A program made the position numbers and the translations under genes. Below, piece by piece: positions 40,050-58,677 of a stretch of 64,000 bases of DNA. Source of the DNA: Arenibacter certesii DSM 19833 (GTDB lineage: Bacteria; Bacteroidota; Bacteroidia; Flavobacteriales; Flavobacteriaceae); NCBI RefSeq assembly GCF_000429545.1, contig NZ_AUCB01000020.1:1-64000 (forward strand). The letters run 5' to 3'. The stretch's first letter is position 1. Each line of letters starts with the position of its first letter. The notes below the pieces were generated by a model. The model was not told where the DNA came from and did not search any database. It worked only from the letters and a program-made list of their open reading frames with translations.

Positions 40050-40952
40050 TTAGTACCATGTGTTCCGTGCCAAAAAAGGAATATCATATGGCAGATCAAA
40101 TCTAGGAATATTGGTCATATGAAGCGTTTTGTCCCATTTTCCAGTATACGGTTCCATATTTATTATATTGGGATCATCAGCCTCCAAGAACTCCGCAATC
40201 TCTGAAAGTTGGTTATTCCAGCTAGGATGTGTAGTTGCCTCGGGTGCCGTAGGGTGTACCAGATTGAACACTTTACTATTTTGAGTGTTTTCCCAATTAT
40301 CCATGGCATGCTTGGCGCCGGCTCCAAAAGTTAGGATCACTTGAATGGGATTTTTTTTAATAAGGGTGTCAATCAAATTTTCTCGAAAGTTTTTTAAGGT
40401 AGGTTCTAGGGAGATTCTCCGCATTTCCGAGTCAAATTGTCCCAATATGCTATAGGCAAATGTGTTTATAATAATATAAGAACGGGTAATACCCACCTTG
40501 TTCAAGAATTTTTGCAGGCGTTGTCCCGCAGATCCAACAAAGGCTCTTCTCGCTATAGCCTCATCGGTGGAGGGGTCTTGGCCAACAACCAACACCCTTG
40601 CGGTATTATCCAATCTCCCTCTGTACAATACACCTCCAAACGCACTTCTAAATCGTGCCGAAGGGTGTTGTACAAAATAGTCGTCCGACAATTCAGAGAA
40701 TTTTTGAAGCCAAAATGGTGGCGGTCCTGCATCGTACTCTTTTTCCATTTCTGCCCGATAGATAGCTTGGGCAGCTAGAAAGTAAGGATTGGATCCAAAA
40801 TCATTGATAGTTTTGATACCGAATGCCTGCTGTAAAAGGTCTGCATCCTTTTTGGACACCCCCTTTAAGGTATCTATTGGCATTTTGCCCAACTCCTCTA
40901 AAGAGTTATTGAGGTAGGCCTTATCGATAAGCTTGTCCCATGCAAATGGCAT
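40050..40952 (-). CDS. Uracil-DNA-glycosylase-fold protein
   Basis: The core (about 110-285) belongs to the UDG superfamily, closest by eye to family 4/5-like proteins: LVVGQDPSTDEAIARRAFVG, then SAGQRLQ, is motif 1, IIINTFAYSILGQ follows, LTFGAGAK is the central strand and HPTAPEATTHPSW is motif 2. The four Fe-S cysteines of family 4 are missing, as the protein has no cysteine at all. Motif 1 carries Asp where family 4 has the catalytic acidic residues, so activity is possible. The N-terminal ~60 residues (TLKGVSKKDADLLQQAFGIKTINDFG) look like a helix-hairpin-helix DNA-binding module. It precedes the amidohydrolase/S41 gene by 58 bases and lies 235 bases after the giant operon, from which it may be partly transcribed. 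Confidence 0.75.
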   Translation of the reverse strand: MPFAWDKLIDKAYLNNSLEELGKMPIDTLKGVSKKDADLLQQAFGIKTINDFGSNPYFLAAQAIYRAEMEKEYDAGPPPFWLQKFSELSDDYFVQHPSARFRSAFGGVLYRGRLDNTARVLVVGQDPSTDEAIARRAFVGSAGQRLQKFLNKVGITRSYIIINTFAYSILGQFDSEMRRISLEPTLKNFRENLIDTLIKKNPIQVILTFGAGAKHAMDNWENTQNSKVFNLVHPTAPEATTHPSWNNQLSEIAEFLEADDPNIINMEPYTGKWDKTLHMTNIPRFDLPYDIPFLARNTWY

Positions 40953-41187: not shown

Positions 41188-42933
41188 TTATGGATCATTT
41201 TTACGGATGTCCAACAACTGGTCGAACTTCAAATTGGCAGATCCCTCGCCTCGTCCTGCTGCTTTTCTCCTTCCCAACCAAAGAAATGTTTTCCCGTTGA
41301 TCCATCTGGTTCGCTGAAAATTTCTGGTAACGATTGTTCCCGCGCTCAGCACTTCTTGTTCTTCAATAAAATAAACCGGCTGTACTTCAGAGATCAATTT
41401 ACTTTTTGCAGCACTGGACTGGGGCATTCTGGCCCTTTGCAAGCGAATTTCCTGTGGAATTACATTTGCGGGCACCTTTTTATGGACCGGTATAAAGGGA
41501 ATCCAGTTGTCTGGAACGGTATTCCCAAGAACATATCTAATCTTTGATTCCTCATCCGCTGGCTCAAAATCGCTCAAGGAGGGAATATTTCGCTTTAATA
41601 CCCTACCCATACCAGCGGCCGAGGGGACAGTGTTTTCAATGGCCCATACCATATTGGACATTTCATCCCTCATTAGATTTACCTTCTCTATATCCTCACT
41701 TTCCATAAGTTTCCCAACAGCGGGCACCAAATAAAAAATACTTTCGTTAAAGGTGGCATTATCGCGTTCGGTATGATGAAATTGGGCAAATTCCTGCCAA
41801 TCCATCTCGGGATCTTCAACCGTTGGAGCAATATGGAAATGCTGTCCAAAAACATCGGTTATACAAATTCCCTTAACCTCACAAATAGTATTTATATTCA
41901 ACTCATAAGGTAATACAAACCAATCATTGGAATAGGTGAGCCCATATTCTGCAAGCAGAAGGTTCATTATTGATGTGGGTGAGGCACTTAACGCCCCAAA
42001 ATCTGTAGTGCCATCCTCCATTTGCCAAAGTCTAGGGTGGGGCATTCCACTAAACTGCAATGGGGCCGGTATAAAAGTTTGGACTACCTCAACAGGATCG
42101 CTAAAGGGGTGGTCAGAAGCGGTGGCACTAGATTGTTTTTGGTCAAAATCCTTCCAATCCAAATGACCCGATGCATACTGATCGGCCATCAACGTTCTTT
42201 TTAAATCGGCATTTATCTTGCTATCTAGGGCAAAATTATATTCCAGGTGTTCCGGTACCCAAGCCGATTCATCTTTCCCTGGTTGCTGGTACAACCTGTG
42301 GAACCAAGCCCCAAATTCATCTGCGGACTTGGCCAACAGATCATAATGACCCACATCTATATTGGCGTTGGTTTCATACCATGATTTAAACTCATTTTTA
42401 ATTATCGCGCCATAGACCAAATAGCCATCTGGTAATAGGTGACCTATAGCTTTCTCCAAGTAAATACCTTCATAATCATCGGCATCCACCTCCACTTCTA
42501 TGGGATACTCCAATTGTAGCTCCTTGGTATATTTCGCTATATTTTTACTTTTCAAGATCTTGCTCAGATGCCTTCCCATTTGTGCCCTAAGAAAAAGCGT
42601 AGCATCTATATCTTCCCGCTCAATAACCATCTCCAAGGGCTTGTCTATGGAATAAGTAATTTTATTTCCGTTATGGAGGGTGATTTCTTCCGGGACAGAG
42701 TGGACTCCCATTATATTGGCCTGATAGGCAGTAGCCGCATCCTCTCCCTGAAATTCCCCAAACTGCCATTGTCTACATAAAAACCAGAGGGGATCACGCA
42801 CCTCCATTTTTAGGTTATGATTTGGGTTTTTGGAACGCGGGCTCCCCTCTATCCGGTTATAATTCCTGATGTTGGGGTTGGAATAGCGATCTCCTTTCAG
42901 TTTTAAGTTTGCTAATGCCAAGAGTTTTGCCAT
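41188..42933 (-). CDS. Giant-operon protein of unknown function, 581 residues
   Basis: Last gene of the five-gene operon. No signal peptide, membrane segment or catalytic motif is recognised. Its most distinctive part is near residue 45: DPLWFLCRQWQFGEFQGEDA. I recall the same DPLW-LxRQWQ-GEFxGEDA pattern in uncharacterised proteins encoded next to DUF6603-type proteins in other bacteria, including actinobacteria, so this is probably a conserved member of the same system. Later segments (PHPRLWQMEDGTTDFGAL, WFVLPYELNINTICEVKGI) are rich in aromatic residues. It begins 31 bases after the 1614-residue gene. The tight spacing argues for a stoichiometric partner in a complex. Confidence 0.6.
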   Translation of the reverse strand: MAKLLALANLKLKGDRYSNPNIRNYNRIEGSPRSKNPNHNLKMEVRDPLWFLCRQWQFGEFQGEDAATAYQANIMGVHSVPEEITLHNGNKITYSIDKPLEMVIEREDIDATLFLRAQMGRHLSKILKSKNIAKYTKELQLEYPIEVEVDADDYEGIYLEKAIGHLLPDGYLVYGAIIKNEFKSWYETNANIDVGHYDLLAKSADEFGAWFHRLYQQPGKDESAWVPEHLEYNFALDSKINADLKRTLMADQYASGHLDWKDFDQKQSSATASDHPFSDPVEVVQTFIPAPLQFSGMPHPRLWQMEDGTTDFGALSASPTSIMNLLLAEYGLTYSNDWFVLPYELNINTICEVKGICITDVFGQHFHIAPTVEDPEMDWQEFAQFHHTERDNATFNESIFYLVPAVGKLMESEDIEKVNLMRDEMSNMVWAIENTVPSAAGMGRVLKRNIPSLSDFEPADEESKIRYVLGNTVPDNWIPFIPVHKKVPANVIPQEIRLQRARMPQSSAAKSKLISEVQPVYFIEEQEVLSAGTIVTRNFQRTRWINGKTFLWLGRRKAAGRGEGSANLKFDQLLDIRKNDP

Positions 42934-42964
42934 GACGTGTCCTATTTAAAATTAGTAATGGTTT

Positions 42965-45900
42965 TTATTCAAAATCCTTGTATAGACCAAAGTCTTTGGT
43001 CTTCATCGTTCTCAAAAATTCATCATTCGTTACAAGATAATCCAGGGAAATATTGGATCTCTGCAAATCATAACTTGCGACGGTCATAGGGGATAAGGTA
43101 TCCAATGCTACATCTTCCAGTAATTGTGCAGGTTCAACCGCTCTGGATTTTGAGCGCTTTAAGGTGTCCTCCAATATCCCCATAAGAACGTCCCAGTCCC
43201 AATTCTTAGAACCGGTGGGTTCAATTGCCAACAACATTGAATTTGGAGATGTGGCGTTTGGTTGATCGTAGTTAAAGGCCACCCCCGTAATTTCTCCTGT
43301 ATTTGGAATAGATTCCGTCCAATCATCTACTACCAAAGCAGATTGTGCCTGAGATACGATACCAGCAGTTTGCCCGTGTATAGATAGGCAGATTGTATTA
43401 TCCATTATATTAAAAGGATCTCCAGTTTCGGTGTCCAATTCAGGGAATTCTACTGCCAACCAAGTATCTTTTTCCTTAAACGGTAACTGTGCAGGCACAA
43501 AGGATATTTCTGCGCCTCCTTGAGCTTCTGAAATCATTTTTAATTGTTCCAAACGGCGCATATTTGGTCTTACGGGTGCCACTGAAGCTATCCATGTCTC
43601 CATCGTCAATTCAGTGGTAGCATCTTCCTTGTCATTGATAAATTTTAATAATTGCTTGTGCTCATCTGCCTTTAGAGTATCTGCAATAGCGGTTTGATCT
43701 ACATAGGTAAAAGTGGGAACTATTACAAAATCATCCCCTAATACCGCTTTGCCTGCTTCTACAAGGTGCCTAATCTCCTTACTGGCAACTTGTCCGGAGG
43801 CAGCCAGCAGTTTTTCCTCGGCTAATAAAATTTTCTTATTGATGGTCTGTAGGTAAGAGCCAACAACCGCTACTAGATCAACGGTCTTTTTACTGTCCCT
43901 TAAATCCAAGTTATCAGGATAAGAGACCTTAACCCCAAATTTGCTTCCACTTTCTAAAAACGATAACAGATTTTTAATGGCGGAATCGGTATAGGATATG
44001 CTTTCTAGGTACTCCCTATTACCACCACCTTCATAATGGAATTCATATAACTGCTGAAAATTGGCCGGATTTTCCTTATTCTTTGGCTGTTGGTCATTGG
44101 GTATGGTAGCTGTTACCTTTCCTAACTCCTCTTTAAGTTTGGTCAGGGCTGTATTTACCCTAACCTTTAACTCGGGTCCGTTATAGCCATACAATAGTTC
44201 AGGATCACTTATTTTGGATTTAGAACTGGGTAAAAAATCTTTGCCATTGGCCGGTCTAGATGAAGTTACCAATAGGCGAAGACTTCGAATAAGCGGTAAC
44301 ATGCTTGCAAAACTATGTTTGGAGGCAGTAAGATTTTCAGGTTCAAACTTAATATGGATCCTATTTTCTTTGGGAACATTTACTTTTTCAGCATAAACTT
44401 TGGCTATGACATACTCCAATTCCTTAGCTCCGGACAGGATATCCTCGCCAGCACTATACATTAAATCGATGGGCTGTAAATTCAGTTCCTCAAGTCCAAT
44501 CGATGTCGCAACTGATTCATTTCCATCCAAATCTACGTGAAATACGGAACAGACTATTGTTGAGGGATCTCCCAGCACTTTTCCCGTCCAAAGATTTAGT
44601 CCGGCCTCCATCGCGGAACGTGGAGAAGGTTCTGTAGACCATCCCGGAGCCAAAGGTCCTACTGAGGAAGGTTCAAAATGTAAGGTTACTCGGTTCGTGA
44701 TGCTCAAATGGGTAGACCTTGGAGTTACGTTAACCTCCAATTCCGGGGGCACATCGGCATTTTTCAACGAATTTAAAATGGCTGCAGTTCTATCTGTTTT
44801 CCCTTGAGTGGCTTGGAATGCCGCTTCCGATACCATAAGATCGTTAAGGGCGTCCAAAGTATCCTCTAAACGGTCTTTCTCTTTTAAAACCAAAATGGAA
44901 TCATCAGGATTTGCTACAAGGGCCTTTATTTGATCAGAAGTTGCTTCTATGATTTTTAATCCGTTAACCACTGAATACGGACTAATGGTCTCCTGGGCCT
45001 CATTTCCCTGTTGGGGGATAGACCTAGCTTTAATAGGAAACTTATCCCTGATGGCCAATATATATTGATTTAGATTGTTTGCTGCGTTGTTTGTAGTGAT
45101 ATCGTGCAAAGCTCTTTCAAATTGGTATCCCAACAGTGCTTCTATAGACTGGTTATTCTGCACCCCTTCCAATACATATAATGCCCTGCGCACACGTTCT
45201 GAGGAGAGGTTTACGGCAAATGGTCCTGGATCTAATTTTGTTGCATGGTTCTGATAACCAGATAAGAGTAATCCTGCCGCTGTCGCATGGTTTAGGGAAG
45301 GAGTATGGATAAAGCCCGCATTCTTCCTTAATTTATGTACTGGTTTGCCATCGGCGGGTTTCAATGCCTCAGGAACAACAACTTCCGACTTTACATTTTC
45401 CCGGAGATTTTCTACCCAACCGTAGGCGCCTAAATAAATCCCTTCCGGATTTTTCTTTCGCATCTCCAACAGTCTTTTGTAGAAAAGTCCCATTTCCCAA
45501 GCATCCAGTCTATAGGAACACAGGTCTATATGATCGGATAAAAGATTGTGCAGTTTGGAAGTGGGCAACTTGGCCAGTACGGACATTGCATCCCGCATTT
45601 CCTTCAAATTTCTTGAGGATTCGGTATTGTCCCTCAAATTTAAAAAATGGTCCCCGATGGGTTCTTTTACTTTTAGGTTTATTTTATCTACCTTTTCTGG
45701 TACTCCCAAAAGTATTTCCCATTCGGTAAGGTCTTGAGTTTCGGCAGAAAAATTATAAAGGCTCTTTTCAAATGCTGCACGTCTGTAGGGCACGTTTCCG
45801 TCAGTATAGTATTTCTCAGCCCCTTTTTTCAGTTCTTGAAGCAAGGCATTCCGCAACAATAAAAATAAAATCGATCTAGGGAATATCACCCCGTGGATAC

Positions 45901-47809
45901 GACTTTCAAGCTCATTGACTTTTGTAACGGAAGCCAACCATTCTATATAATTATTTTTGGTGATTTTATTCTTTTCCAAAAATCGTGTTGGGGAAGGCAG
46001 TTCCCTATCCACAAGATGGTTAGTAGATATGTTGTTTAAAAATCCATAGAAGGATAGATTACTGATATAGGGATAGGCATTTTCTCCCCTATCAAAACCC
46101 AGTTCCTCCAACATTTTTGTGATTTCCGATTGCTTATGGACAATAGATCCCATTAGATCTCCTGGGATGGACATGGTCATCCAAATGTCCGGTAAATTGC
46201 CCAAACGCTGTTTAAATGAAACCGATCCCGCGCTGAGTCCCAAAATATTTAACATCAATGCCCCTGGGTCTCCTGGTTTACCAACATGGGACACCTTGTT
46301 GCTGGCAATATTATCCCATTTTTGCTGAAGCACGGATAGGGTTTTGGTGAGCCCTGAATGAAATGGATCACTTTCCTTCCATATATTTAGATCACTGGTC
46401 AACAATGTTCCGTAGGGTTGATTTCCAACCCTTATGCAAGGTAGTGGTCCCGGAGCCGTTACAAAATCATTAAAAAATTGCCTTAGCTTGGGGTGTGCGG
46501 CCTTGTTCACCACTGGATCCGCCAATACTTCAATAAAATTACCTATTGTAGATGAGTAGATGGCCTTGTTCATGGCCGAAGCTTCATAAGATTCTACCAT
46601 CCCTGCATGATTCACTTCTTTAAGAACAGTACTTTTGATTCCTAGATATTCTGCAAAATTATTACCCTCCGCATTGGGCAAATTGTCCAAATCCACGATA
46701 TCGGACCCATCATAATAATTTTTCGGTAGGTAGTCTTCATTCTTTTCATAGGCAGAAGCTGTTTCCTCAGTATTGTTAGTTGCACTCATCTGTGGCATAA
46801 AACTGAAGCCATTGTGCGAATAATGATGGCTATCTATCAACTGCTCCAACAAATCCTTCCCCTCTTGGGGAGTGGCAGAGGGCATTAATCCCATAACCAT
46901 TACCCTGTCTATAATCGACCGGTTAAAGTGGGTATTGTCCAAGGGTATTTTCACACCAAGTCCTTGTTGCACCGCTTTGTCAAAATTGGTTATCCAAGCA
47001 AAACTCTCATCCAAGGTGATGGTGTTCTCCTCATTGTTGAAAGCCTCTTCCGCCAAGAAAGGATCGGGTCCTAAAAAAACCGTATCAGGTACTTGGTTTC
47101 CTAAGGTCATCTGCACTACTCTTCCGTCTCTAATGATACTCACAGCAAACTTGTCCGGTAGTATCTGTGTTCTAGGGGCTCGGGTCCAATCATGTATCTT
47201 CGTTTCCGAAAGGTCTGGAAACATTAATTGCGTTTCGCCTACGGTTAGATCTACTGTCCAATTTATGGGCATCGTCCTTTTCACGATCCAGAGTGCCCTT
47301 TGTATACCCGCCATTCCATTTAATACCTGCCATGCCTTTTGCTTAATGGCTTCCTTATCCTCCCCGCCTTTACGGTTGGCTATAAGCAGGTCTACCCAGT
47401 ATTGCTTCCCGTAATTTACTTCATTTTCAGTAAGGTAGGGCTCATGGGAGTGCACATGAATATCATCGGGATAAATGCGCACCCATAGTTCTTTTCTATT
47501 GTTCACGTTCATAAAACGGGTCTCCAATCGTAAGGGAAGAAAAAGTATAGGGATATTGGCATCCATCGCTGCGGTCGCCTCCTTTAATTGGTGATTCCGG
47601 TATAAATTCGCCAAGCTAGCGCTCAACACTTTTTCTGCGTCAAAATAAGCCCTACTACTTGCTTCCAATTCAACCTTTACTTCGGACAACAAATCAGGAT
47701 TTTTCGCCTTGTGAACAGACAATTTTGTTCTATAAAACGAAGCCTCAGCCTTTTTTAGGGCTTCTCTTGCCTGTGCTACTACTTGTTGGTCTTCCTTAAA
47801 TGTTGCCAT
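42965..47809 (-). CDS. Giant-operon protein, 1614 residues, unknown function
   Basis: The largest protein of the window. It starts with about 75 residues of charged helix (likely coiled coil), then a conserved-looking region: PILFLPLRLETRFM, ELWVRIYPDDIHVHSHEP, LTENEVNYGKQYW. The PxRLETRF and RxYPDxIHVHSHEP motifs are what I remember from large uncharacterised proteins next to DUF6603 genes. The middle is a mix of helices and strands without a recognisable domain, and the C-terminal part (GITGVAFNYDQPNATSPNSMLLAIEP, like EITGVAFNY) contains no catalytic motif either. No signal peptide, no membrane segment. It lies 15 bases after the 1073-residue gene and 31 before the 581-residue gene. Function unknown; structural role in a large assembly is my inference. 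Confidence 0.6.
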   Translation of the reverse strand: MATFKEDQQVVAQAREALKKAEASFYRTKLSVHKAKNPDLLSEVKVELEASSRAYFDAEKVLSASLANLYRNHQLKEATAAMDANIPILFLPLRLETRFMNVNNRKELWVRIYPDDIHVHSHEPYLTENEVNYGKQYWVDLLIANRKGGEDKEAIKQKAWQVLNGMAGIQRALWIVKRTMPINWTVDLTVGETQLMFPDLSETKIHDWTRAPRTQILPDKFAVSIIRDGRVVQMTLGNQVPDTVFLGPDPFLAEEAFNNEENTITLDESFAWITNFDKAVQQGLGVKIPLDNTHFNRSIIDRVMVMGLMPSATPQEGKDLLEQLIDSHHYSHNGFSFMPQMSATNNTEETASAYEKNEDYLPKNYYDGSDIVDLDNLPNAEGNNFAEYLGIKSTVLKEVNHAGMVESYEASAMNKAIYSSTIGNFIEVLADPVVNKAAHPKLRQFFNDFVTAPGPLPCIRVGNQPYGTLLTSDLNIWKESDPFHSGLTKTLSVLQQKWDNIASNKVSHVGKPGDPGALMLNILGLSAGSVSFKQRLGNLPDIWMTMSIPGDLMGSIVHKQSEITKMLEELGFDRGENAYPYISNLSFYGFLNNISTNHLVDRELPSPTRFLEKNKITKNNYIEWLASVTKVNELESRIHGVIFPRSILFLLLRNALLQELKKGAEKYYTDGNVPYRRAAFEKSLYNFSAETQDLTEWEILLGVPEKVDKINLKVKEPIGDHFLNLRDNTESSRNLKEMRDAMSVLAKLPTSKLHNLLSDHIDLCSYRLDAWEMGLFYKRLLEMRKKNPEGIYLGAYGWVENLRENVKSEVVVPEALKPADGKPVHKLRKNAGFIHTPSLNHATAAGLLLSGYQNHATKLDPGPFAVNLSSERVRRALYVLEGVQNNQSIEALLGYQFERALHDITTNNAANNLNQYILAIRDKFPIKARSIPQQGNEAQETISPYSVVNGLKIIEATSDQIKALVANPDDSILVLKEKDRLEDTLDALNDLMVSEAAFQATQGKTDRTAAILNSLKNADVPPELEVNVTPRSTHLSITNRVTLHFEPSSVGPLAPGWSTEPSPRSAMEAGLNLWTGKVLGDPSTIVCSVFHVDLDGNESVATSIGLEELNLQPIDLMYSAGEDILSGAKELEYVIAKVYAEKVNVPKENRIHIKFEPENLTASKHSFASMLPLIRSLRLLVTSSRPANGKDFLPSSKSKISDPELLYGYNGPELKVRVNTALTKLKEELGKVTATIPNDQQPKNKENPANFQQLYEFHYEGGGNREYLESISYTDSAIKNLLSFLESGSKFGVKVSYPDNLDLRDSKKTVDLVAVVGSYLQTINKKILLAEEKLLAASGQVASKEIRHLVEAGKAVLGDDFVIVPTFTYVDQTAIADTLKADEHKQLLKFINDKEDATTELTMETWIASVAPVRPNMRRLEQLKMISEAQGGAEISFVPAQLPFKEKDTWLAVEFPELDTETGDPFNIMDNTICLSIHGQTAGIVSQAQSALVVDDWTESIPNTGEITGVAFNYDQPNATSPNSMLLAIEPTGSKNWDWDVLMGILEDTLKRSKSRAVEPAQLLEDVALDTLSPMTVASYDLQRSNISLDYLVTNDEFLRTMKTKDFGLYKDFE

Positions 47810-47824
47810 GACTTCTTGCTTAAT

Positions 47825-50800
47825 TTATTGTGGGGTTATTTTTGCGTACGCTTTTAAAGTGATCATTTCCTTTAGGCCTATGATTCTGGCAGGGACCTCT
47901 TTGTTTAACATTTCTTTGGAATGTATTGCAACCATAACGGGACGTTGGAATAATATACTGGCCATATCAGCAGAGCTTTTGCCCCAAACCCCTGTTTTCG
48001 GATCGTTGGGAGGGGTGAATTTGCCTCCTAATTTATTGGCATTCTTTGGTGATTTATCAGATTTCACAAACTGTAGGTCCTCATCAAAATTTTCCCAAGA
48101 TAGATCGTTCCAAGTAAAGTTATCTGGTTTGGGAGGATCGGAGGGCTGATTGGGGTTATAGGAAATATCCATTCCAAAATGAGGCTCCCCTGGAACTTCG
48201 GCAATGATAAAATACCAGCCCAATTCACCATCAAATCCGGGCGTCTCAACTTCTCCAGACGCCTCTTCAATGGTAAGATCAAAACCTAAAAGCTTAATAT
48301 CTGGTCGTATCTCGGCTTGGTATAGTGGGAACCGTACGTGTTTTTTGTATACACTCTCATCGGTCATATCCTCAATAATTTTTGTCTTGTCCCCATCTTT
48401 TACCGCCTTTTGGGCATAGATCACGGTATTGGGAAATTTCTTTAACAAATCTCCCTTAATCACAAAGACCAGCTGTTCTGGATCTCCCTCTGCATCCCGT
48501 TTGTTATGGGTCCCAAGGTTACTTGTATTGGGCCATAGGTGAATAGGTTCTATATCCTTTAAAGATTCTGCATCTTTGGGGGTAGTATCAGGAGTAACAA
48601 ATCCCGATACATCCCAGAACTGTCTAAAATAACTGCCACGCATATCGGTAGGGTACTCGCGCCATAGCAGTTCTTTCCCCATTTCAAAATTGAGCCCCAT
48701 TAAATACGCTTCTATAAACTTCTGATTGGTTCTTAATAGGGATAGCGTATTTGGAGGTATCAGCCTTAGGTTTGGAAGCAAAAACTCCTCATCTATATCC
48801 AACAAGTATTTGTACGATGGTTCTGGAATATCGGGATAGGCCATTGCCGGTAAAAACTCCTCTTGGGGCTCCTTAAATACCCCTGCAGGCCATTTTATCA
48901 TGGCATCCATCAACTTTTTATAGGCATTGGATGGCTTTATGGTTTCGGTTATCTTAGTTTTTATTTCAGCAACCTTTAAGGTAGTTTCCGCGATTTCCTT
49001 ATCCCTATATTCATATCGGAACGAGGCATCGGAATAGGCCGTTTTTATATGTTTTATCTGAGTCGCTCTTTCCAATCGGTTTTTGGCAACAACGGTATCG
49101 GTCAATAGTATCCTTGATGGTATGGAAGCACCAGATGAAATTGTGGGCCTTCGATGGGGCGTGAAAATTGTAGGGCCTGTTGTAGCGGTAGGAGTACCTG
49201 CCCTTGGGGAAACGGGTCTACTAATATTTATATTGGGCGAAACTGGCCTTCCTATATTCAAATTTAAATCGAATTTCTTATTCCATTTATCTGCCTTTGG
49301 CAATCCTCCGTCAAATTTTTCACGATTATAAATAAAATCTTCATCCAGATTGGATTGAACACTCCAAACCTTAATATCCATTACCGCAGCTGGTGCAGTG
49401 AATTCTTTTAGGTCCTGTAACTGATGGTGAGACTTAAAATCCCCCTTCACATCTACACTAATCCCGTTTATCTTGTTCATTGCCTTAATAGTAGTATCAA
49501 AGTGCTTAACGGCATTGTCAATTTCCAGCCCCCGGACCAAGGAAGTCTTATTTCTGGTCAATCGCTTAAAGGCGGGTTGAAATATAGCTTCTGGAAGAAT
49601 GCTATCCTGAATGGAAAATTTCACGGTGGTGGCACCGTCCAAAATACGAGTCGCTAGGGGCCTGGTAAAACCAATGAGGTTTTCGGCTGATTGCACCACA
49701 ATATTTTTCTCGTACATTTTCCCCATCAGCTGCACCATAAACTGCGCCAGCTTCATTCTCTTATTTGCTTCCAAGACCTCTGTTAACTGCTTCCAAGCAA
49801 TATCCATAAACTTCTCTTGATTCTGCTGTACTACCCGCATACCGAAACCTGCTGGAACCCTTGTACGTGGGTCTCTATTGAGATCATTATACCAATTTTC
49901 AGAATGCGCCTTAAACTCGGGCACCGCCCTTTTTCCCGGACTGTTATTGTCTTTGCGCATGGCGTGGTACATACCGTAATAGGGCACGGTTACAAAAGGA
50001 TCTTCAGTAGTGTTTTCTTCCTGTAGGGTATTGAGATTAATTAGTTTTTGAATTTGATCAAAAAACGGTTGCGGCGTATTAACTGGCGGAAAAACAGTGG
50101 ATTTTGCTTGTGGTGCCTTCATTGCACCCTCCAAAAGCATGATAGGTGGTACTGGGGCCGCTACCTCCTCCTTCTTATCGGCCTGTATAAATGCAGGTTT
50201 GGAGCAATCCATTGGACGTACCCCTACCCGTTCATCCATAACTCTGGGCTTAAGTAATTTTACCAAATATTCAAAATCAAAATTCTTCCCGGTACGGAAG
50301 TACCATCGGTGATAAATAGGGAATTCCAGATCCGAGGCAAAAGCATGTTGCTGGGTCTTTATGCCTGTTGTTGGCCTGCCCAGACCAATAAGCCGCCCGG
50401 TTTCATAAGAAGGCACCAGAAACGCGTGATACAGTGCTGTGGAATCTAGTTTCCTAGGACATAGCAACCTACTATAAATTCCATCGGGATCCATTTTTAC
50501 ATCCTTTTCAAGTCCTTCTAAAAATTCTGTAAAATCACTTTCAGTATGGGGCAAATTGGAATGCATATGTGCCCAGAGGTGTAGTTCATCTGCCGGTGGC
50601 AGATAATCTGCACTCCCAATTTTTATACTTGGTAGGGGTTCCCTTCTTTGGGTATCCAAAAATTCATTTTCTTTGAGAACAAGGAGCGCCATCCAAGGTC
50701 TAAGGTGTTCATTTTTGGTTCCTGTGGCCGATGCTGGAGTATATCGCCATGGAAAATCCTCATCATAAAATTCGATATAGGGTAGCAGATTAGGCTCAAA

Positions 50801-51046
50801 ATCTGGTATTCCGTTCAAGGGCTCTGTCCTAACGATCATCTTCTGTTGGATGCCGGTAATATCTCCAGGACCAATAAGGTTAAACTCTTGGGTATGGTTG
50901 GTGGCTGAATTTATTTTTACAGAGATAGGAATTTTCGCCCGTTCCACAGCAGTACCTGCGGACTTCCCCAGCGTATCTTTTTCGATGATACTTCTGGCGA
51001 TACCCCTGCGGGACCACGAAAGAAATTGATATTTGCCGAATTCCAT
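47825..51046 (-). CDS. Giant-operon protein, 1073 residues, unknown function
   Basis: Uncharacterised protein without a signal peptide. Its N-terminal ~200 residues have a distinctive pattern (LIGPGDITGIQQKMIVRTEP, then FEPNLLPYIEFYDEDFPWRYTPA, LRPWMALLVLKENEF and LHLWAHMHSNLP) that I recall from proteins found with DUF6603 genes in unrelated phyla. A proline-rich spacer with two near-identical units (LNIGRPVSPN and NISRPVSPR) and PTATTGPTIFTPHRRPT lies around residues 600-660, probably a flexible link between two folded halves. The C-terminal ~170 residues look beta-rich (EVPGEPHFGMDISYNPN). It lies 38 bases after the DUF6603-like gene and 15 bases before the 1614-residue gene. Confidence 0.6.
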   Translation of the reverse strand: MEFGKYQFLSWSRRGIARSIIEKDTLGKSAGTAVERAKIPISVKINSATNHTQEFNLIGPGDITGIQQKMIVRTEPLNGIPDFEPNLLPYIEFYDEDFPWRYTPASATGTKNEHLRPWMALLVLKENEFLDTQRREPLPSIKIGSADYLPPADELHLWAHMHSNLPHTESDFTEFLEGLEKDVKMDPDGIYSRLLCPRKLDSTALYHAFLVPSYETGRLIGLGRPTTGIKTQQHAFASDLEFPIYHRWYFRTGKNFDFEYLVKLLKPRVMDERVGVRPMDCSKPAFIQADKKEEVAAPVPPIMLLEGAMKAPQAKSTVFPPVNTPQPFFDQIQKLINLNTLQEENTTEDPFVTVPYYGMYHAMRKDNNSPGKRAVPEFKAHSENWYNDLNRDPRTRVPAGFGMRVVQQNQEKFMDIAWKQLTEVLEANKRMKLAQFMVQLMGKMYEKNIVVQSAENLIGFTRPLATRILDGATTVKFSIQDSILPEAIFQPAFKRLTRNKTSLVRGLEIDNAVKHFDTTIKAMNKINGISVDVKGDFKSHHQLQDLKEFTAPAAVMDIKVWSVQSNLDEDFIYNREKFDGGLPKADKWNKKFDLNLNIGRPVSPNINISRPVSPRAGTPTATTGPTIFTPHRRPTISSGASIPSRILLTDTVVAKNRLERATQIKHIKTAYSDASFRYEYRDKEIAETTLKVAEIKTKITETIKPSNAYKKLMDAMIKWPAGVFKEPQEEFLPAMAYPDIPEPSYKYLLDIDEEFLLPNLRLIPPNTLSLLRTNQKFIEAYLMGLNFEMGKELLWREYPTDMRGSYFRQFWDVSGFVTPDTTPKDAESLKDIEPIHLWPNTSNLGTHNKRDAEGDPEQLVFVIKGDLLKKFPNTVIYAQKAVKDGDKTKIIEDMTDESVYKKHVRFPLYQAEIRPDIKLLGFDLTIEEASGEVETPGFDGELGWYFIIAEVPGEPHFGMDISYNPNQPSDPPKPDNFTWNDLSWENFDEDLQFVKSDKSPKNANKLGGKFTPPNDPKTGVWGKSSADMASILFQRPVMVAIHSKEMLNKEVPARIIGLKEMITLKAYAKITPQ

Positions 51047-51084
51047 ATTTTTTAATTTAAGTTAAAGATGCCTATGTACATTTC

Positions 51085-54000
51085 TTAGTTCGCCAGTTCA
51101 AAACTTTCCACAATTTGAAGCTTGGACACCAATTCAGGGTCTTCGCTGATCAAGGCTTCATAAGCTTTATTGATCTCTGCGAGGGTAGACGCCCTAAATT
51201 GTCCCTCAAACTCTTTCATATCGGAGGTTTTGGCAATGGCATAGCCATTATCGTTCAAAATAACTTCCTTAGGTTTGTTTATAGCATTTAAGGCAGATCG
51301 GTTCCAAGCTATTTCGGATTTGGACACGGCTGCCAATCGGGACATATGGTTAAAACCAGTTTTAGGAAGTCTAAGATTAACCTTTACCTCGTCATCTTCC
51401 GTATAATTCAGTTCATAATCCATAACGGTAGGATCCAAAACCGGGTCTGCGGTCAACAATTTGTTACTGTCCTTAAGTTTAAAACCACTATCCAATTCTT
51501 CGTACGATTTTCTGTTCAGCTTTTCCTTTTCCGTAAGCTGTGTGAAATGGCCTGGTGCAAAAAACTCTTTTTGTAGGTCTATTTGATTTACATCCTCACC
51601 AACTTTCACCTCCGAAATCTGAAAGCGTTTTTCGTCCTTGGGTTTTTTGGTGCCGTATTTTTCAATGTTATAATTTAATGGGATGCTCCGTTGAGAAAAC
51701 TTCAGTTCCCCGAAAGGATGTAGAATAAGGGACGCATCTACCCCATCTTCCAAACTTTTAAGCGTTACGTACTGATGTTGGTTCTCGCTATATAAGGCTT
51801 GCCAATTGGGAAGGGCTTCCAATTCCCGCGTTACAATGGAGAGCAGATCCTCCGTTGCGGAAACAACCGATGGTGTTGGATCGCCCCAGGTAGCGCTGAA
51901 ACCGATGGTAACATCAAAAAACAGAACGGAAAACGAAACTTCCCCTTCCACATGCCAAGGTGTTGGCCCGGACAGTCTTCCCTTGAAGTGGATACCAAAG
52001 AGCACGCTTGTTCCTTTTCTTATGGCCAGTGTGGCCTCTAGACTAATTATAAAACTGAACGGATCAAAAATAAACAGGGCATCAAAAGCCAACATTCCGT
52101 AAAGGTTGAAACTAAACGGTCCTTTAGCCAACAGCTCCAATTTTGCGCCAAATTGGACCGAATTGGAAGTAACGGCAAAATAACATTCAATAGTCAATTT
52201 TGGATTGCCGCCCTCCAATAAGGAAAGTCCAATCCTTGCCATTTTCCTAAAAGCTCCGGGCAGGGTAGGTACGGTGGGATAATCCCTAAAATCTGGGTGG
52301 AAACCTCCCACGCTGATGGCAAATATGTTTTGTCCGCTCCAAGCTACCGCAAAGGCCAGACTACCGGTTAATGGGAACCCTACCAACATGGATTCAAAAA
52401 GATGGGCCTCGAAATAAATAAATTTATTCTGGAAATCTATTACTCCCAAAAAGTTCACCTGCAACTTTAGTAGTGCTGCATCCTCTGTAGGTAATGCCAA
52501 TTTGATGACCCCTAAGATCACCACTCTTGGATTTGGGAACTCTATAATAAACCCCAACTCTATATGAAGCAAAGTGGGTGAACCCCATCCAAATTTCCCC
52601 ATAAGTCCCACTAAGAATTGATCCTCCTTAATGGGAAAGATTTGCCTTATATCGTTAATGATCCGTGTTATATTCCCAACCACATCTTCAGGGAAGAGCA
52701 CACTTTTTATGGCATTGGTACGGATCCCCGCTCGAAGTACTTCTACTTCCATGGTACGGTCTATTCCCAATAGTCCTCCTACAGCAATCAATGTAAAACC
52801 AAAACCGAGCTGTACCGGTGAAAACTCTGCGGTAATGATGATCAGCATGGAGAACCCCTTGGAACCATCGGGCATTATAGTATTGATAATCCCTACGGCC
52901 TTTAAAGTAAATAAATTTTTGAACTCCAATTCCAGAGAACCGAAATATTCCCCTTTTTCATCATCGAAATATAAGAACCCACCTCCTTTTATTACTTCAG
53001 CATTGATCCTAATCCCTGCGCCATTGGGCGGTTTAATTGAGGGGACCATATCATACCCTAAAACGCCGCCATTATCGTCCCGTTTAAGCATATTTAGATT
53101 AAACCCTAGCCGACTGATACTGATGGTAACAACGGGACCAAATTTCACCCAAAAATCTAAGGAGGTCTCCAACTTCATCTTATCAAAATTCCCTTCCACT
53201 CCGGTCCTCAAATTCAGGGTCTCGAACCCTACAATGTCCCCTATACTTTTGTGAATAGGAATACGAAGGTTAATAGCATTGAGTATTTTAGCCACAACTC
53301 CTGCAACAAAGGAAGGTTCTTCTGCGGCAGCTCCCCCACTACTGGCGGTTGTTTCAGCAGGCTTTGTTGATGAGCCTGCACTTCCGTCCCCAAAGAAAAA
53401 GTCGCGCTTAAGGGAATACCCAAACCCAATGGGGATCTTCTCATCTATCTTTTCCGGTAAAAGGTCCCATGGAAATCCGGTTTTATCACCGCGACCGAAT
53501 TCGAATGGCATTTCAAAATTCACCTTGATTTCAAAATCGTCGGGAGTCACGGTCATAGCGATGGAATAGGTCCCAAATCCCAGTTTAATGACAGGGGCAT
53601 CCATCAACGAAAACTTATCGGCCTTCTTCCTGTCGTGTTTATAGGTTACCTTGATCTTATTGTTTTTACCTGCCGAAGCTTCTGGACTGGTCCCTATTCT
53701 GAATACTCCTTCTCCAGAAGCATCAAATTTAAATGAGATATCTTCTGTTACGGGCAGCGTAAAATCTACCTCCCCGGACAGGTCGGTGATAAATGCGATT
53801 CCCCCTTGTTGTTGGGGAATAAATCCAAAGGTATTGAACAAGGTAATTTCATTATCGGGATCGGCAGTCGGATTTATGGTAACAGAATAGTTTACAAACC
53901 GGTTGCTGATCTTATCGGCATTAGGGGTAACAGAAGTACTTGCCCCTTCGTACCCATAACCTGCCTTGATCTGAAGGGTATCCGACCCATGTTTTTCAAG

Positions 54001-54591
54001 GATGTATTTTTTAACCAGGAACAAAACAATGACAAAACCCACAAAAACGGTATCGGATACCGCCTTGGTGCTCTCTTCACTTTCCAGACCTTTGCCCATT
54101 CGTTTAAAGAAGTCTACGACAACATCTTCAAAGAAATTATTCATCCCTCCTTCTGCCGCGGACTGCTGGGTCACTACCTGAAACAAATTGACCATTCCGT
54201 AGACCTCTGGCGACTGACGCCTTATAAAGTCCATCAATAGCACATTTAAAAAGGATTGATAAATTTCATCAGCAGCAAATTCAGGATTATCTCCGGCGGC
54301 GACTCCTGCTCTTATAATTCCCTCAATTGCCAGCGATAAGGCGGTAAGGTCTGCGATAGCACTAACCAGTTGGAAGGTATCTACTTCCTCTGACTCCGAT
54401 TGTATGTATTGATCTAAATTGGTAGTGGCCGGAAGGTTAATGGGGCCCCCTGTACTAGTTAAACCAAGAGTTCCAAATAATTCGGCACGGGCCTCAGAAT
54501 CCTGTAATATTCCCAGCCCAGGCTTCAAAATATCACTGATCCCTGTTAATAAAACCTTGAAAAAATCGCTATTTTGCTCTTCTTGTGCCAT
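51085..54591 (-). CDS. DUF6603-like protein, 1168 residues
   Basis: An unusual, highly hydrophobic beta-rich protein with no signal peptide. Residues 1-180 are helical. A hydrophobic stretch at 181-197 (TVFVGFVIVLFLVKKYI) could be a membrane segment. The body (about 205-930) is made of amphipathic strands. Diagnostic pieces are LGFGFTLIAVGGLLGIDRTM, KSVLFPEDVVGN and LMGKFGWGSPTLLHIELGFI, then FALSVGGFHPDF-like FAISVGGFHPDFRDYP and SNSVQFGAKLELLAKG, which I associate with DUF6603. The family's function is unknown; the long strand-rich, apolar body invites comparison with lipid-transfer or pore-like folds, but this is speculation. The start is 2 bases after the PhoD-like gene's stop, so translation is probably coupled. 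Confidence 0.7.
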   Translation of the reverse strand: MAQEEQNSDFFKVLLTGISDILKPGLGILQDSEARAELFGTLGLTSTGGPINLPATTNLDQYIQSESEEVDTFQLVSAIADLTALSLAIEGIIRAGVAAGDNPEFAADEIYQSFLNVLLMDFIRRQSPEVYGMVNLFQVVTQQSAAEGGMNNFFEDVVVDFFKRMGKGLESEESTKAVSDTVFVGFVIVLFLVKKYILEKHGSDTLQIKAGYGYEGASTSVTPNADKISNRFVNYSVTINPTADPDNEITLFNTFGFIPQQQGGIAFITDLSGEVDFTLPVTEDISFKFDASGEGVFRIGTSPEASAGKNNKIKVTYKHDRKKADKFSLMDAPVIKLGFGTYSIAMTVTPDDFEIKVNFEMPFEFGRGDKTGFPWDLLPEKIDEKIPIGFGYSLKRDFFFGDGSAGSSTKPAETTASSGGAAAEEPSFVAGVVAKILNAINLRIPIHKSIGDIVGFETLNLRTGVEGNFDKMKLETSLDFWVKFGPVVTISISRLGFNLNMLKRDDNGGVLGYDMVPSIKPPNGAGIRINAEVIKGGGFLYFDDEKGEYFGSLELEFKNLFTLKAVGIINTIMPDGSKGFSMLIIITAEFSPVQLGFGFTLIAVGGLLGIDRTMEVEVLRAGIRTNAIKSVLFPEDVVGNITRIINDIRQIFPIKEDQFLVGLMGKFGWGSPTLLHIELGFIIEFPNPRVVILGVIKLALPTEDAALLKLQVNFLGVIDFQNKFIYFEAHLFESMLVGFPLTGSLAFAVAWSGQNIFAISVGGFHPDFRDYPTVPTLPGAFRKMARIGLSLLEGGNPKLTIECYFAVTSNSVQFGAKLELLAKGPFSFNLYGMLAFDALFIFDPFSFIISLEATLAIRKGTSVLFGIHFKGRLSGPTPWHVEGEVSFSVLFFDVTIGFSATWGDPTPSVVSATEDLLSIVTRELEALPNWQALYSENQHQYVTLKSLEDGVDASLILHPFGELKFSQRSIPLNYNIEKYGTKKPKDEKRFQISEVKVGEDVNQIDLQKEFFAPGHFTQLTEKEKLNRKSYEELDSGFKLKDSNKLLTADPVLDPTVMDYELNYTEDDEVKVNLRLPKTGFNHMSRLAAVSKSEIAWNRSALNAINKPKEVILNDNGYAIAKTSDMKEFEGQFRASTLAEINKAYEALISEDPELVSKLQIVESFELAN

Positions 54592-54593
54592 GA

Positions 54594-57233
54594 TTACGTA
54601 ATTTGTGGCCTATTGGTCTCGCTTCCGGACGCCACTAATGGCATCGTGTGTTTTATATGGGTACCCACAATATTCTTGTTGATATCCCTATCGCCCTTCC
54701 TGAACAAAAATTCATGTTTTACCTTCCAACTGGCACCATCAGCCTCAAATTTTATCAGGCCTACATTAGACGGCCAAACCATACGCCGATGTACTCCTGA
54801 AATAAAATTCTCTTGGCTACGCTGCACAATTTTCTTATATCCTTCTTTTAAGGAAGTGGGGTTGTTGAGAACCACATCTTCCGTAACCAGATCATCTTCA
54901 CGTACCGTTAAGTCTGTCTGCACGGACATCCTATATCTGTAATCGGGAGCCTGATTTACGGTTGCGCCGGTTTGCCATCCTGCCGTAGGTAATACGGCAG
55001 GGTTCTGTCTTAATCTATTTCTATTTCTAATACTGACATCACCTGTAACGGACAATACCTTGTTTATCCAAACCAATTTCTCTAGTTTATCCCCTATTCC
55101 GGTCAGCACCTTTTCGGCAAGTGCCGATCTGTACAAGTGTTCAAAGCCAAAAGACTCATTTTTCAGGGAACTTGCGGTAAGCTGTATCATCCTTGCCTTG
55201 GGAGTAGTGCCACTTCCTTCCCAATAATCTAGGACGGAAGAAAACCCATAATGGACATCTCCGGAAAGGAGGATTACCTTTTCGAGCTTTGCCAATCTTT
55301 GGATCAAATTTTCCAAAGCCTCAAAATTAAATCCCCATGCTTCAAAGTCATAGTCGATCTGCCCTTGCAATACCCCAGGATTGGGCCCGGTAGTAGTTGT
55401 TATTCCCACAACCGAAGCGGCCGCCGGTTGTATTAATTCTTCAAAACTTTGAAGCCCAAAAACTGGGGCTGCCGAGATAACAAAGGAAAAAGGCGCATTC
55501 CCAAAAGGAACTGTTTCCGGTGTCTGTTCTAATAGTGCCTCTTTGGATACTAGTCCGGGCGGACTGTTTAAAGAGGGAAAGTTTCTTCGCGTTCGCGTGT
55601 CCAAAACATAGGTTTTGGTGGGGCCTGTATCCACATTATAATGCCATCTTACCAGATCTTGCGCGGGAATCGTGGCAGCGCCCATCCCCAATAAGTTTTC
55701 AATTGGTGATATAGTATTTTCCCTTAAGGCATCCAGTCCGGAGGTATTGGCGATACTAAAGCAATAATCGGATATTTTTCTGATCAGTTTGGTTCTTGGT
55801 TTAAGCGTGTTGGCGTTTTCCCCCGCCTGTTCAATTGCCACATACTCGTCCGGTACGTTGCCCCAATCTTGGAACACTGCATATGCCATTAGGCCATTTC
55901 GAATTACATCCCTTCCCAAAGGTTTTGAAAAAACTTGATTTTGCCATCTTTTGGAAAGGTTCCAATCGTCAGTCACTTCATGGTCATCAAAAACCATATA
56001 AGTGGGGGTATTGGCCATAACCCTGCTCACTTGGGGTAGACTATCAGCAAATTCTGCCATTTCCTTTAGTTCTCCGATCAATCTATTTTTGATTCCGGTT
56101 TTCCAACTGTTGAATTTTTCGGCAGGCGGACTTTCATTAAATATTTCGTTGAGTTTGTCGTTAAATACAAACTGTGTGGCATTCCCTCGTAGGTTGTCCA
56201 CATCTCTAATGATAGGTATAAGGCCAGAGGTTTCTGGAAGGGAGTCGTCTTGAAGAAATTTATCGGCTACTTGGGCGATTACTGTTTTCACCTTACCACC
56301 CGTTTTCTTAATCTCATCACCTATTTTCTTTATTTCTTTGTAAAAATCAAGGTTCCAAGAGCGAACACTCCAATAATTGAGATACGTACCCGCAAACTCT
56401 TCAAAAGAGATCAGATGACACCTAGAACTTCCACCAGAGGTTAGACCGGCGTACTCTGCCAGAAGATGCTGTCTTAAAAATGGAGGAAAGCTAACACTGT
56501 CTACCTCCACATTTTCTGTAGACGCAGAATTGTTTATCCGTATCTGCACGGTTTCCTGTCCTACCAAGGAACCTCCGTCCTTTAACCCGGCATTAAACAG
56601 CAGCATGCCCGGCACATCATCTGCATAGATTTGGTCTCCGGTAAGGAATAGCTGTTGGGGCCTTTTGAAAGGGTCTACATCCACACCAATCACGCTTTTT
56701 TTAATGATATCGTCTAGATGGGCAAGGGCATCCATCCCATGACCGTGCATTTTTCTACAAGAAGCATGTGCTATAAATAGGTTTGCCGGATCATCGGCTG
56801 GCAATACAAAGGTGGGCAGTTCATCCGGTTTATAACCCAAAGCCTTTTGTGACCGCCCTTCGTGCTCACTATCCTTCAACAATCCATCTGTCCTTAGGTC
56901 CCCTTTGTCCGAAGGGTCATCGGAACTTCTAAAGAGCACATTATAGCTATAGGTTTGGCCTACTTGTAAGGGCAATAGGAGTTCTGCGGTGACCACCGTA
57001 ATCCATAAATTTCTACCAAATTGCACGGTTACCGCTTCTGCGGCCGTTGTAGTATCTAGTTTAACTGCCACTGTAGTCGAAATTTCGGTTGCATCTGCGT
57101 TAACTTTCACATTATCCCCCTGATACACATTTAAGGTTAGCCTATAGTTCCTGGAACAAGCCATCCAAACAGACACTTTCCTCCTTTCTACCCTCCGTAG
57201 AATTGGTCCACAAATAATTTTTGGCATTGACAT
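54594..57233 (-). CDS. PhoD-like metallophosphoesterase, first gene of the giant operon
   Basis: An 879-residue protein whose core (about 150-680) is a PhoD-family phosphodiesterase/phosphatase. FIAHASCRK opens it, FLTGDQIYADD (Asp200, Asp205/206), VFDDHEVTDDW (416-423) and LLSGDVHYG (658-663) carry the metal ligands. The N-terminal ~110 residues form a beta-sandwich as in PhoD proteins. Classical PhoD enzymes are exported by Tat and anchored outside; this one has no signal peptide and no twin-arginine leader, so it is apparently cytoplasmic. The C-terminal ~200 residues have no family match. It is the first gene of the operon, preceded by a hairpin in the leader and a poor -7 element. Its substrate could be a phospholipid, nucleotide or teichoic-type polymer; not known. 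Confidence 0.82.
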   Translation of the reverse strand: MSMPKIICGPILRRVERRKVSVWMACSRNYRLTLNVYQGDNVKVNADATEISTTVAVKLDTTTAAEAVTVQFGRNLWITVVTAELLLPLQVGQTYSYNVLFRSSDDPSDKGDLRTDGLLKDSEHEGRSQKALGYKPDELPTFVLPADDPANLFIAHASCRKMHGHGMDALAHLDDIIKKSVIGVDVDPFKRPQQLFLTGDQIYADDVPGMLLFNAGLKDGGSLVGQETVQIRINNSASTENVEVDSVSFPPFLRQHLLAEYAGLTSGGSSRCHLISFEEFAGTYLNYWSVRSWNLDFYKEIKKIGDEIKKTGGKVKTVIAQVADKFLQDDSLPETSGLIPIIRDVDNLRGNATQFVFNDKLNEIFNESPPAEKFNSWKTGIKNRLIGELKEMAEFADSLPQVSRVMANTPTYMVFDDHEVTDDWNLSKRWQNQVFSKPLGRDVIRNGLMAYAVFQDWGNVPDEYVAIEQAGENANTLKPRTKLIRKISDYCFSIANTSGLDALRENTISPIENLLGMGAATIPAQDLVRWHYNVDTGPTKTYVLDTRTRRNFPSLNSPPGLVSKEALLEQTPETVPFGNAPFSFVISAAPVFGLQSFEELIQPAAASVVGITTTTGPNPGVLQGQIDYDFEAWGFNFEALENLIQRLAKLEKVILLSGDVHYGFSSVLDYWEGSGTTPKARMIQLTASSLKNESFGFEHLYRSALAEKVLTGIGDKLEKLVWINKVLSVTGDVSIRNRNRLRQNPAVLPTAGWQTGATVNQAPDYRYRMSVQTDLTVREDDLVTEDVVLNNPTSLKEGYKKIVQRSQENFISGVHRRMVWPSNVGLIKFEADGASWKVKHEFLFRKGDRDINKNIVGTHIKHTMPLVASGSETNRPQIT

Positions 57234-57834: not shown

Positions 57835-58677
57835 CTATTGGTTACGGTATCGTTCATAAGCTGCTCTTAATTTAGCATCATATTTATTCTGCTTGTACCC
57901 CGGCCCATTATAGCCATGGGCAAAATTGGCCCAATTCTTTTCTTTTAACCAATTGGTCAACGTTTTGCCCCTAAAACGGTTTAGGGATATAAATTTCCCA
58001 AAGGCGACTAATTGTTCTCGTTCGTGCTCTTGCATCTTTAAGACAAATTCGTTTATTGAGGCATAGCCCAAGTTTTCATAATGGTATCCCATAATTTGAA
58101 AGGCTCCCCAAGAAGCCGAGCTGTATGCCGCATCGGCTACCTCAGGAAGGTCTGATATTTCAATAGCTTTTTGCAATCGGGAATATTCCCCAGAACCACC
58201 CTTGTAATATTTTCTTGTCCATTTTTCGTACAACACCTCTTTTGTTTTATCATTATAGAAATCTTGGGCGTTAAGACCCCGTTTTTTCAACTCCCGCCAA
58301 AACACGTGACCCTCAAATAAAATGACTGCTCTTCCGTCTACCAAAAAACCCTTTCCTCTGCTCTCTACCGAGTTCACGGCCTTGACCGCAGGGAGTTCTA
58401 GACCGTAATGATCTGCAAAATCTTGAAGATCTTGTTCTGACAATAACTTGGAGTTAAAGTTGGTGAACAGGTTTTTCTTTTCTACCAATTTGGCCCAGGT
58501 TTTTAACCCAACCATACCATCAACAACCAGTTCGTTTTCCTTCTGGAATTCCAAAATAGCTAGATGGGTATCCCTACCAAAAAACTGGGAGACATAAACC
58601 TCATACCCCAAGATGTTTAAAACTTCCTCGAGGAGAAATACTTCAGGGCCGCGGGAACGATATTTTAGTGTTTTCAT
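57835..58677 (-). CDS. N-acetylmuramidase with peptidoglycan-binding domain
   Basis: A peptidoglycan hydrolase. Residues ~5-65 are a PG_binding_1 domain (LEEVLNILGYEV, VDGMVGLKTWAKL). Residues ~85-278 are an N-acetylmuramidase (DUF3380) domain with the likely catalytic Glu105 in AVNSVESRGKGF, ILFEGHVFWREL, SSASWGAFQIMGYHY and ANFAHGYNGPGY. This family was first described in phage endolysins. There is no signal peptide, so without a holin-type or lysis event it would stay in the cytoplasm. It is on the same strand as, and 600 bases upstream of, the giant operon. Confidence 0.85.
   Translation of the reverse strand: MKTLKYRSRGPEVFLLEEVLNILGYEVYVSQFFGRDTHLAILEFQKENELVVDGMVGLKTWAKLVEKKNLFTNFNSKLLSEQDLQDFADHYGLELPAVKAVNSVESRGKGFLVDGRAVILFEGHVFWRELKKRGLNAQDFYNDKTKEVLYEKWTRKYYKGGSGEYSRLQKAIEISDLPEVADAAYSSASWGAFQIMGYHYENLGYASINEFVLKMQEHEREQLVAFGKFISLNRFRGKTLTNWLKEKNWANFAHGYNGPGYKQNKYDAKLRAAYERYRNQ

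Follow-up and report, generated by a model that had tools for sequence, protein, structure and literature searches.

The 64,000-nucleotide stretch analysed here (the window; positions 1-64,000 of contig NZ_AUCB01000020.1 of Arenibacter certesii DSM 19833) carries an operon of five minus-strand open reading frames (ORFs) at 41188-57233, lettered A to E in the order of transcription. The last four genes form an invariant core, which horizontal transfer has carried into about 12 phyla, haloarchaea among them; in most loci one gene, or sometimes several in tandem, stands before it and encodes an enzyme whose class changes from locus to locus. Our data suggest that the operon may encode an undescribed enzyme-carrying assembly for delivery outside the cell, a reading that we favour tentatively and hold at somewhat less than an even chance. 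The five genes are separated by 31, 15, 38 and 2 bp (in ascending coordinates) and together encode 5315 amino acids (aa), in agreement with an initial annotation of the window that had described closely spaced minus-strand genes for about 5300 residues. The parts are as follows:

54594-57233, minus strand: A, first gene, PhoD-like phosphohydrolase of 879 aa (PF09423, E = 4.3e-09), in the position of the exchangeable enzyme
51085-54591, minus strand: B, core, DUF6603 protein of 1168 aa (PF20248, E = 7.7e-118)
47825-51046, minus strand: C, core, unnamed family (DFPWRYTPA) of 1073 aa, after B in 86 of 86 loci with room
42965-47809, minus strand: D, core, unnamed family (RLETRF, YPDDIHVHSHEP) of 1614 aa, in 82 of 82 loci with room
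41188-42933, minus strand: E, core, unnamed family (DPLWFLCRQWQFGEFQGEDA) of 581 aa, in 11 of 12 loci with room

Loci for comparison were collected by tblastn with B, which matched 13 plasmid records and no phage record, and by a scan of GTDB contigs for relatives of B. This gave 91 loci with B (11 plasmid regions, one region from genome G035 of the window's own family and 79 GTDB-contig loci), which were scanned with profiles of all five window proteins; the sample is biased towards close relatives of the window's B, as the GTDB part was cut to the best 80 of 276 relatives. The synteny count excludes seven loci (L009-L011, L023, L025, L026 and L090, the last of which duplicates a plasmid record), and a locus was counted as having room when the contig continued after B for at least 1.5 kb (C), 5.5 kb (D) or 10 kb (E). 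On this basis none of the loci with room lacks C or D, and the single locus without E (L015) has a 619-aa ORF in its place and a B that looks frameshifted. Gene order and strand are identical in all these loci, and the linkage of B, C, D and E is far beyond chance, which upholds the earlier suggestion of a conserved, tightly coupled set around DUF6603 across phyla. The five-gene set that had been proposed stands only in part, with B-C-D-E constant but a PhoD-like gene present in only 17 of 66 classed loci and unrelated enzymes elsewhere, so a five-gene system as such is rejected.

The loci lie in Bacteroidota (57), Pseudomonadota (8), Actinomycetota (5) and Chloroflexota (2), with one each in Rhodothermota, Acidobacteriota, Planctomycetota, Aminicenantes, Cyanobacteriota, Verrucomicrobiota and one unplaced bacterium, although several of these single-locus phyla are represented by metagenome bins whose assignment may be wrong; further loci come from Gemmatimonadota and four haloarchaeal plasmids. 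Among 296 Bacteroidota genomes, DUF6603 exceeds its cut-off in 12, C is found in six and E in six. C and E occur in the same six genomes, all of which have B, and thus neither was found without B in this sample; the other six DUF6603 genomes have B without C and E. Within the core, C is split over two genes in Rhizobium (L018).

The assignments of A and B in the initial annotation hold, with B scoring 394.7 bits against a curated PF20248 cut-off of 27, a clear DUF6603 member, and A scoring 36.4 bits against a PF09423 cut-off of 27. The motifs GDQIYAD, DDHEVTDDW and SGDVH of A (residues 199, 416 and 657) are presumably the PhoD metal motifs, and a match to DUF7800 falls under its cut-off (E = 0.0023). 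The motifs quoted earlier for the other three proteins are all present, DPLWFLCRQWQFGEFQGEDA at residue 47 of E, RLETRF and YPDDIHVHSHEP at residues 94 and 113 of D, and DFPWRYTPA and LRPWMALLVL at residues 97 and 115 of C. At E <= 0.1, Pfam offers nothing for C or D; protein E has a single match there, under its cut-off. No convincing match was found for the five proteins in NCBIfam (none at E <= 0.1 for C, D and E) or in PHROGs (one weak match, C, E = 0.046), PADLOC 2023 has no model for A, B, C or D and matches E only to Csn2 (E = 0.0045), and D has no PDB sequence match. A solved relative of any core protein was likewise not convincingly found by sequence. Neither DUF6603 nor PF20248 appears in any paper of the literature searched, and searches for related gene sets brought up nothing relevant. 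The expectation that the set is undescribed is thus borne out within these libraries and this literature, with C, D and E outside any Pfam, NCBIfam or PHROG family. The C, D and E families (580 to 3200 aa each) are not supported as paralogues by hhalign, a phage or viral origin is rejected as no match was found in phages or viral contigs, and promoter and terminator scans gave no more sites than shuffled sequence.

The gene directly before B matches, depending on the locus, Pfam families for Nal1_C (trypsin-like), Peptidase_S8, M64, M14, galactose oxidase/Kelch, phospholipase D (PLD) or tyrosinase. Profile classes gave 13 labels over 66 loci, namely PhoD (17), trypsin-like (17), two caspase-like groups (8 and 6), S8 (6), M64 (5) and seven singletons. 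Among the classed first genes that were measured, 51 of 61 overlap B or end no more than 50 bp from it, and four loci (L072, L086, L100, L102) have first genes in tandem. On a quick maximum likelihood tree of B, with support from the Shimodaira-Hasegawa-like approximate likelihood ratio test only and with 29 of the 91 loci dropped for want of an assignable first gene or because B is split, the 13 labels require 26 class changes over the 66 loci, where 12 would be the unavoidable minimum. Shuffled labels require a mean of 41.8 changes, so the labels are clustered on the tree, suggesting that a lineage keeps its enzyme class for some time before exchanging it. The count is 23 when the caspase-like labels are merged (64 loci, 10 labels), 19 when trypsin-like and S8 are merged as well, and 20 when five long-branch rows are dropped.

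These labels differ in their firmness. The trypsin-like label is based on a Pfam match to Nal1_C in L048 and on motifs in 28 of 29 members, and strict motifs are present in 5 of 8 S8, 2 of 8 M64 and 14 of 18 PhoD-class members. The caspase-like, alpha/beta-hydrolase, glycoside-hydrolase-like and L020 labels are tentative, being drawn from motifs by eye with no Pfam match; both caspase-like motifs occur in only 4 of 8, 1 of 2 and 2 of 4 members, and L063 is grouped as caspase-like only through an adjoining 327-aa protein. In L016 the first gene (1561 aa) is related to PhoD by profile, with no Pfam PhoD match, and the first gene of G035 (L120:5977-7932, 651 aa) has no Pfam match.

A new C-terminal domain of about 117 aa is common to unrelated catalytic domains, occurring in 31 ORFs of 23 loci (23 trypsin-like proteins, six of the eight S8 proteins and two fragments), and matches no Pfam family at E < 0.02. 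It was found in three of the 296 genomes, in two of them as part of the operon's first gene and in one stand-alone, and it may serve as a docking domain for one class of cargo. A patatin-like gene, recognized by eye, lies near the stand-alone copy (L119:9380-10792).

The six DUF6603 genomes without window-type C and E contain, in seven loci, a second and distant operon subtype, so DUF6603 is not always accompanied by C, D and E. Its DUF6603 protein is longer (about 1300-3200 aa), and the next gene, C', matches the C profile at E = 2.8e-06 to 0.021 (a small set) and aligns with C in hhalign at a probability of 96.2% (E = 2.3e-09), supporting homology. C' is split over two genes in L108 and L110, like C in Rhizobium. 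Five of the seven loci also share a conserved third large gene, D'; homology of D to D' was not detected (hhalign probability 0.1). By sequence comparison, the second subtype keeps homologues of B and C only in part. First genes nearby are metallo-beta-lactamase (MBL)-like (L107, L111), DUF4135 (L113) or without identity, and a gene for a Peptidase_S74 fibre-chaperone domain adjoins the operon in L107 (over cut-off) and L111 (just below).

Structure prediction for B (49 sequences) gave a mean predicted local distance difference test (pLDDT) score of 72 and a predicted template modelling (pTM) score of 0.49, and residues about 441-902 are modelled as a long antiparallel beta meander whose strands are mostly amphipathic, some being hydrophobic on both faces. 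The best Foldseek matches of B were outer-membrane barrels, ushers, LptD and apolipoprotein B; these are not taken as its fold because the template modelling (TM) score is at most 0.16 and the root-mean-square deviation 17 Å or more, and a viral structure library likewise gave no fold match. The model of C (46 sequences; pLDDT 75, pTM 0.64) has no PDB match at E < 0.2 in Foldseek.

Export signals were called by a crude hydropathy rule, which is no substitute for a proper predictor and which 113 of 1559 background ORFs pass. None of the five window proteins passes it, in keeping with the initial annotation; PhoD-like phosphatases usually carry a Tat-type export signal, and A has no signal-like stretch by this rule. 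Neither do any of the B, C and E homologues, nor any of the S8, M64, PLD, M14, tyrosinase and caspase-like first genes. Modules usual in exposed proteins are fused to the system in several loci, with Kelch on B (L104), a lamin-tail domain (LTD) on two haloarchaeal E proteins, and FG-GAP on C and PG_binding_1 on the first gene in L016. The Kelch region lies at the C-terminus of the DUF6603 protein of L104 (8750-14507), where a second Kelch ORF follows directly and an M14 peptidase lies on the opposite strand.

Linkage to extracellular contractile injection systems (eCIS) was found in two lineages. A full eCIS locus follows E by about 2.3 kb on the same strand in G035, with genes for Pvc16_N, sheath, gp19 tube, CIS_tube, injector, gp25 and an eCIS_core/DUF4157 protein, and an eCIS begins about 0.5-1.4 kb after E, again on the same strand, in the Chitinophaga group (L035, L037, L038 and L039, the last from Chitinophaga filiformis DSM 527), which is one lineage on the tree. 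With 46 sheath matches and genomes of about 6 Mb, about 0.08 would be expected by chance within 5 kb of the operon. Sheath matches at E <= 0.001 were found in 27 of 49 genomes searched from 50 loci (16 over cut-off) and not in the other 22; the rate in the Bacteroidota sample (74 of 296, 51 over cut-off) offers no clean comparison, because genome size and phyla are not alike in the two sets. Genomes G091 and G138 also have the core and no sheath match, and tube, spike and baseplate families have no match among the five window genes in Pfam or PHROGs. The core is thus sometimes linked to an eCIS and does not require one, given adjacency in two lineages and core genomes free of sheath matches. 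Two Algoriphagus-type genomes (L123, L138) have a lone sheath-like gene, with no other tail genes, 58-60 kb from the operon. A GerE/LuxR regulator lies at 59866-60555 of the window, 2.6 kb upstream of the operon. In L117 a full-length relative immediately precedes the S8 first gene, and L053 has another 1.3 kb before its core; such regulators adjoin 25.8% of eCIS loci according to PMC8213781.

An enzyme-carrying assembly is the most likely reading because of the fixed, horizontally spread core, the exchanged putative cargo, the lack of export signals, the linkage to eCIS islands and the exposed-type modules. The tight coupling of the first gene to B, the 117-aa domain on different enzymes and the S74 gene beside the second subtype also speak for it. 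The core proteins would build a large particle or complex made in the cytosol, which is a plausible step, and the first gene would supply the cargo or warhead (in the window, the PhoD-like phosphohydrolase); that an exchangeable partner enzyme is a delivered cargo is a step that we infer. One class of cargo would be docked through the 117-aa domain as a tag, and the amphipathic beta domain of DUF6603 might be the part that contacts lipid or membrane. The core and most cargo proteins have no signal peptide and the same core is found in archaea, monoderms and diderms, suggesting a self-contained particle that needs no envelope-specific secretion system and could leave the cell by lysis, for example, as eCIS particles do. 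It would then act as an eCIS does, as a carrier with exchangeable toxic or digestive enzymes, and would have no sheath or tube. The fuller version, in which B-C-D-E is a so far undescribed, self-contained delivery nanoparticle, unrelated to phage tails, by which bacteria and archaea bring a swappable enzyme to other cells, DUF6603 being its membrane-inserting or lipid-handling element and a modular C-terminal tag serving for loading, is in our judgement rather unlikely as a whole.

Several observations weigh against an enzyme-carrying assembly. Adjacency to an eCIS is confined to 4 of the 49 genomes searched, all of one lineage, and G035, with most loci having none; the window's own genome has no PF04984 sheath match, and sheath genes occur in 5 of the 12 DUF6603 genomes against 74 of 296 overall, no clear enrichment, so that a dependence of the core on eCIS is not supported. 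The lack of any relative in phages or viral contigs and the rejection of an outer-membrane-barrel, usher, LptD or apolipoprotein B fold for B tell in the same direction, as does the stand-alone protein with the 117-aa domain, which is trypsin-like and comes from a genome without the core (G087). Further, the crude signal-peptide rule is passed by 4 of 18 PhoD-class, 1 of 29 trypsin-class and 1 of 88 D proteins; no first gene could be assigned in 29 of the 91 loci, and in about a dozen loci, mainly from Algoriphagus, where B is about 2200 aa long, the upstream genes are only distant or housekeeping-like. Lastly, intracellular antiviral systems usually draw their effectors from trypsin-like, caspase-like and MBL enzymes too. 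The Algoriphagus DUF6603 protein of L066 (5663-12292) has about 1000 extra N-terminal residues with repeated beta segments, and no close first gene.

The main rival is intracellular defence or programmed death, in which the giant core would sense infection or damage and license an effector enzyme exchanged from a shared pool. Trypsin-like proteases and MBL nucleases have repeatedly been acquired by antiviral systems, according to PMC12799240, and defence explains the proteases and MBL enzymes of these loci as well as delivery does. The absence of signal peptides and the trypsin-like, subtilase, PLD and caspase-like first genes fit it, and the first genes of L107 and L111 match the MBL model LmuA (E = 8.5e-08 and 1.3e-17), that of L111 also Avs1a. 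Its neighbours are of the conflict type in places: TIR-like and SIR2-like genes, identified by eye, and an integrase lie just upstream of the G035 operon (L120:3041-5211), genes that by eye look nSTAND ATPase-like, DUF4062-like and TIR-like lie at 32185-36056 and 62493-63623 of the window, and a TIR gene lies near L013. However, apart from the weak Csn2 match of E the core has no PADLOC model, only the subtilase, PLD and MBL genes among 10 first genes compared with PADLOC match at E <= 0.001, and Pfam shows no NTPase or nucleotide-signalling domain in the core. The M14, M64, tyrosinase, galactose oxidase, Kelch, LTD, FG-GAP and peptidoglycan-binding parts would be unusual in such effectors, and the adjacency to eCIS in two lineages speaks for something else. 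We regard defence as unlikely.

Two other explanations fare worse. A chaperone, maturation or storage complex, such as a proteinaceous compartment for dangerous or unstable intracellular hydrolases, would account for large conserved cytosolic proteins, a variable enzyme partner and a common C-terminal tag, but it leaves the eCIS neighbourhood and the exposed-type modules unexplained, and no similarity to shell proteins was found by sequence; it seems improbable. Still more doubtful is the view that the operon belongs to eCIS as an accessory module, such as an alternative carrier with which the eCIS is loaded, and has become independent in some genomes. The direct same-strand adjacency in the Chitinophaga group and G035 argues for it, as do the regulator genes upstream of the window operon and of the L117 first gene and the S74 gene beside the second subtype, S74 being an eCIS shell domain according to PMC8213781; a GerE-like match is present in only 4 of the loci scanned, and the core genomes free of sheath matches (the window's, G091, G138 and the 22 of 49) stand against it.

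Compared with known systems, the operon resembles eCIS (PVC, Afp, MAC, AlgoCIS) in its fixed core with locus-specific enzymes or toxins, the cargo role being putative for the operon, in its scattered occurrence in environmental Bacteroidota, Actinomycetota, Cyanobacteria and haloarchaea (as PMC8213781 gives it for eCIS) and in the physical adjacency of the two in two lineages. Unlike eCIS, its four-gene core has no sheath, tube, spike, baseplate or AAA gene, the window genome has no sheath gene, and its putative cargo gene stands first and has no DUF4157 in those scanned. B is a clear member of DUF6603 (PF20248), for which Pfam gives no function, whereas here it is one of four co-inherited genes and is found in two operon subtypes. 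Antiviral systems (Hachiman, Avs, Lamassu, canu) share trypsin-like, caspase-like and MBL partners with it (PMC12799240), but the core has no homology in PADLOC and its partners include extracellular-type enzymes.

Bacterial gasdermins are beta-rich, partly hydrophobic proteins encoded beside a variable protease, which recalls the beta-rich, partly hydrophobic B. However, B is a DUF6603 protein of 1168 aa with three giant partners, many first genes do not encode proteases, and gasdermin is found neither in the Pfam matches of the five window proteins nor among the 50 Foldseek matches listed for B.

Four giant families that have neither a known function nor a known fold relative, that stay together in bacteria and archaea alike and that pair with changing hydrolases would represent a new modular class of enzyme system. 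If the carrier reading is true, the operon would provide a natural delivery platform without a phage tail, and if defence is true, a new immune architecture; either way, three unnamed families and DUF6603 become testable as one system.

Among the neighbouring genes of the window, an N-acetylmuramidase with PG_binding_1 (57835-58677), endolysin-like by its match to PHROG 1224 (E = 3e-88), lies on the same strand as the operon, 601 bp upstream of the first gene; it is rejected as a member of the system, having no relative in the loci scanned. A protein of the uracil-DNA-glycosylase superfamily (PF03167) with a helical N-terminal part is encoded at 40050-40952, 235 bp after E, and an amidohydrolase and an S41 peptidase are fused in a single 1110-aa ORF at 36659-39991.
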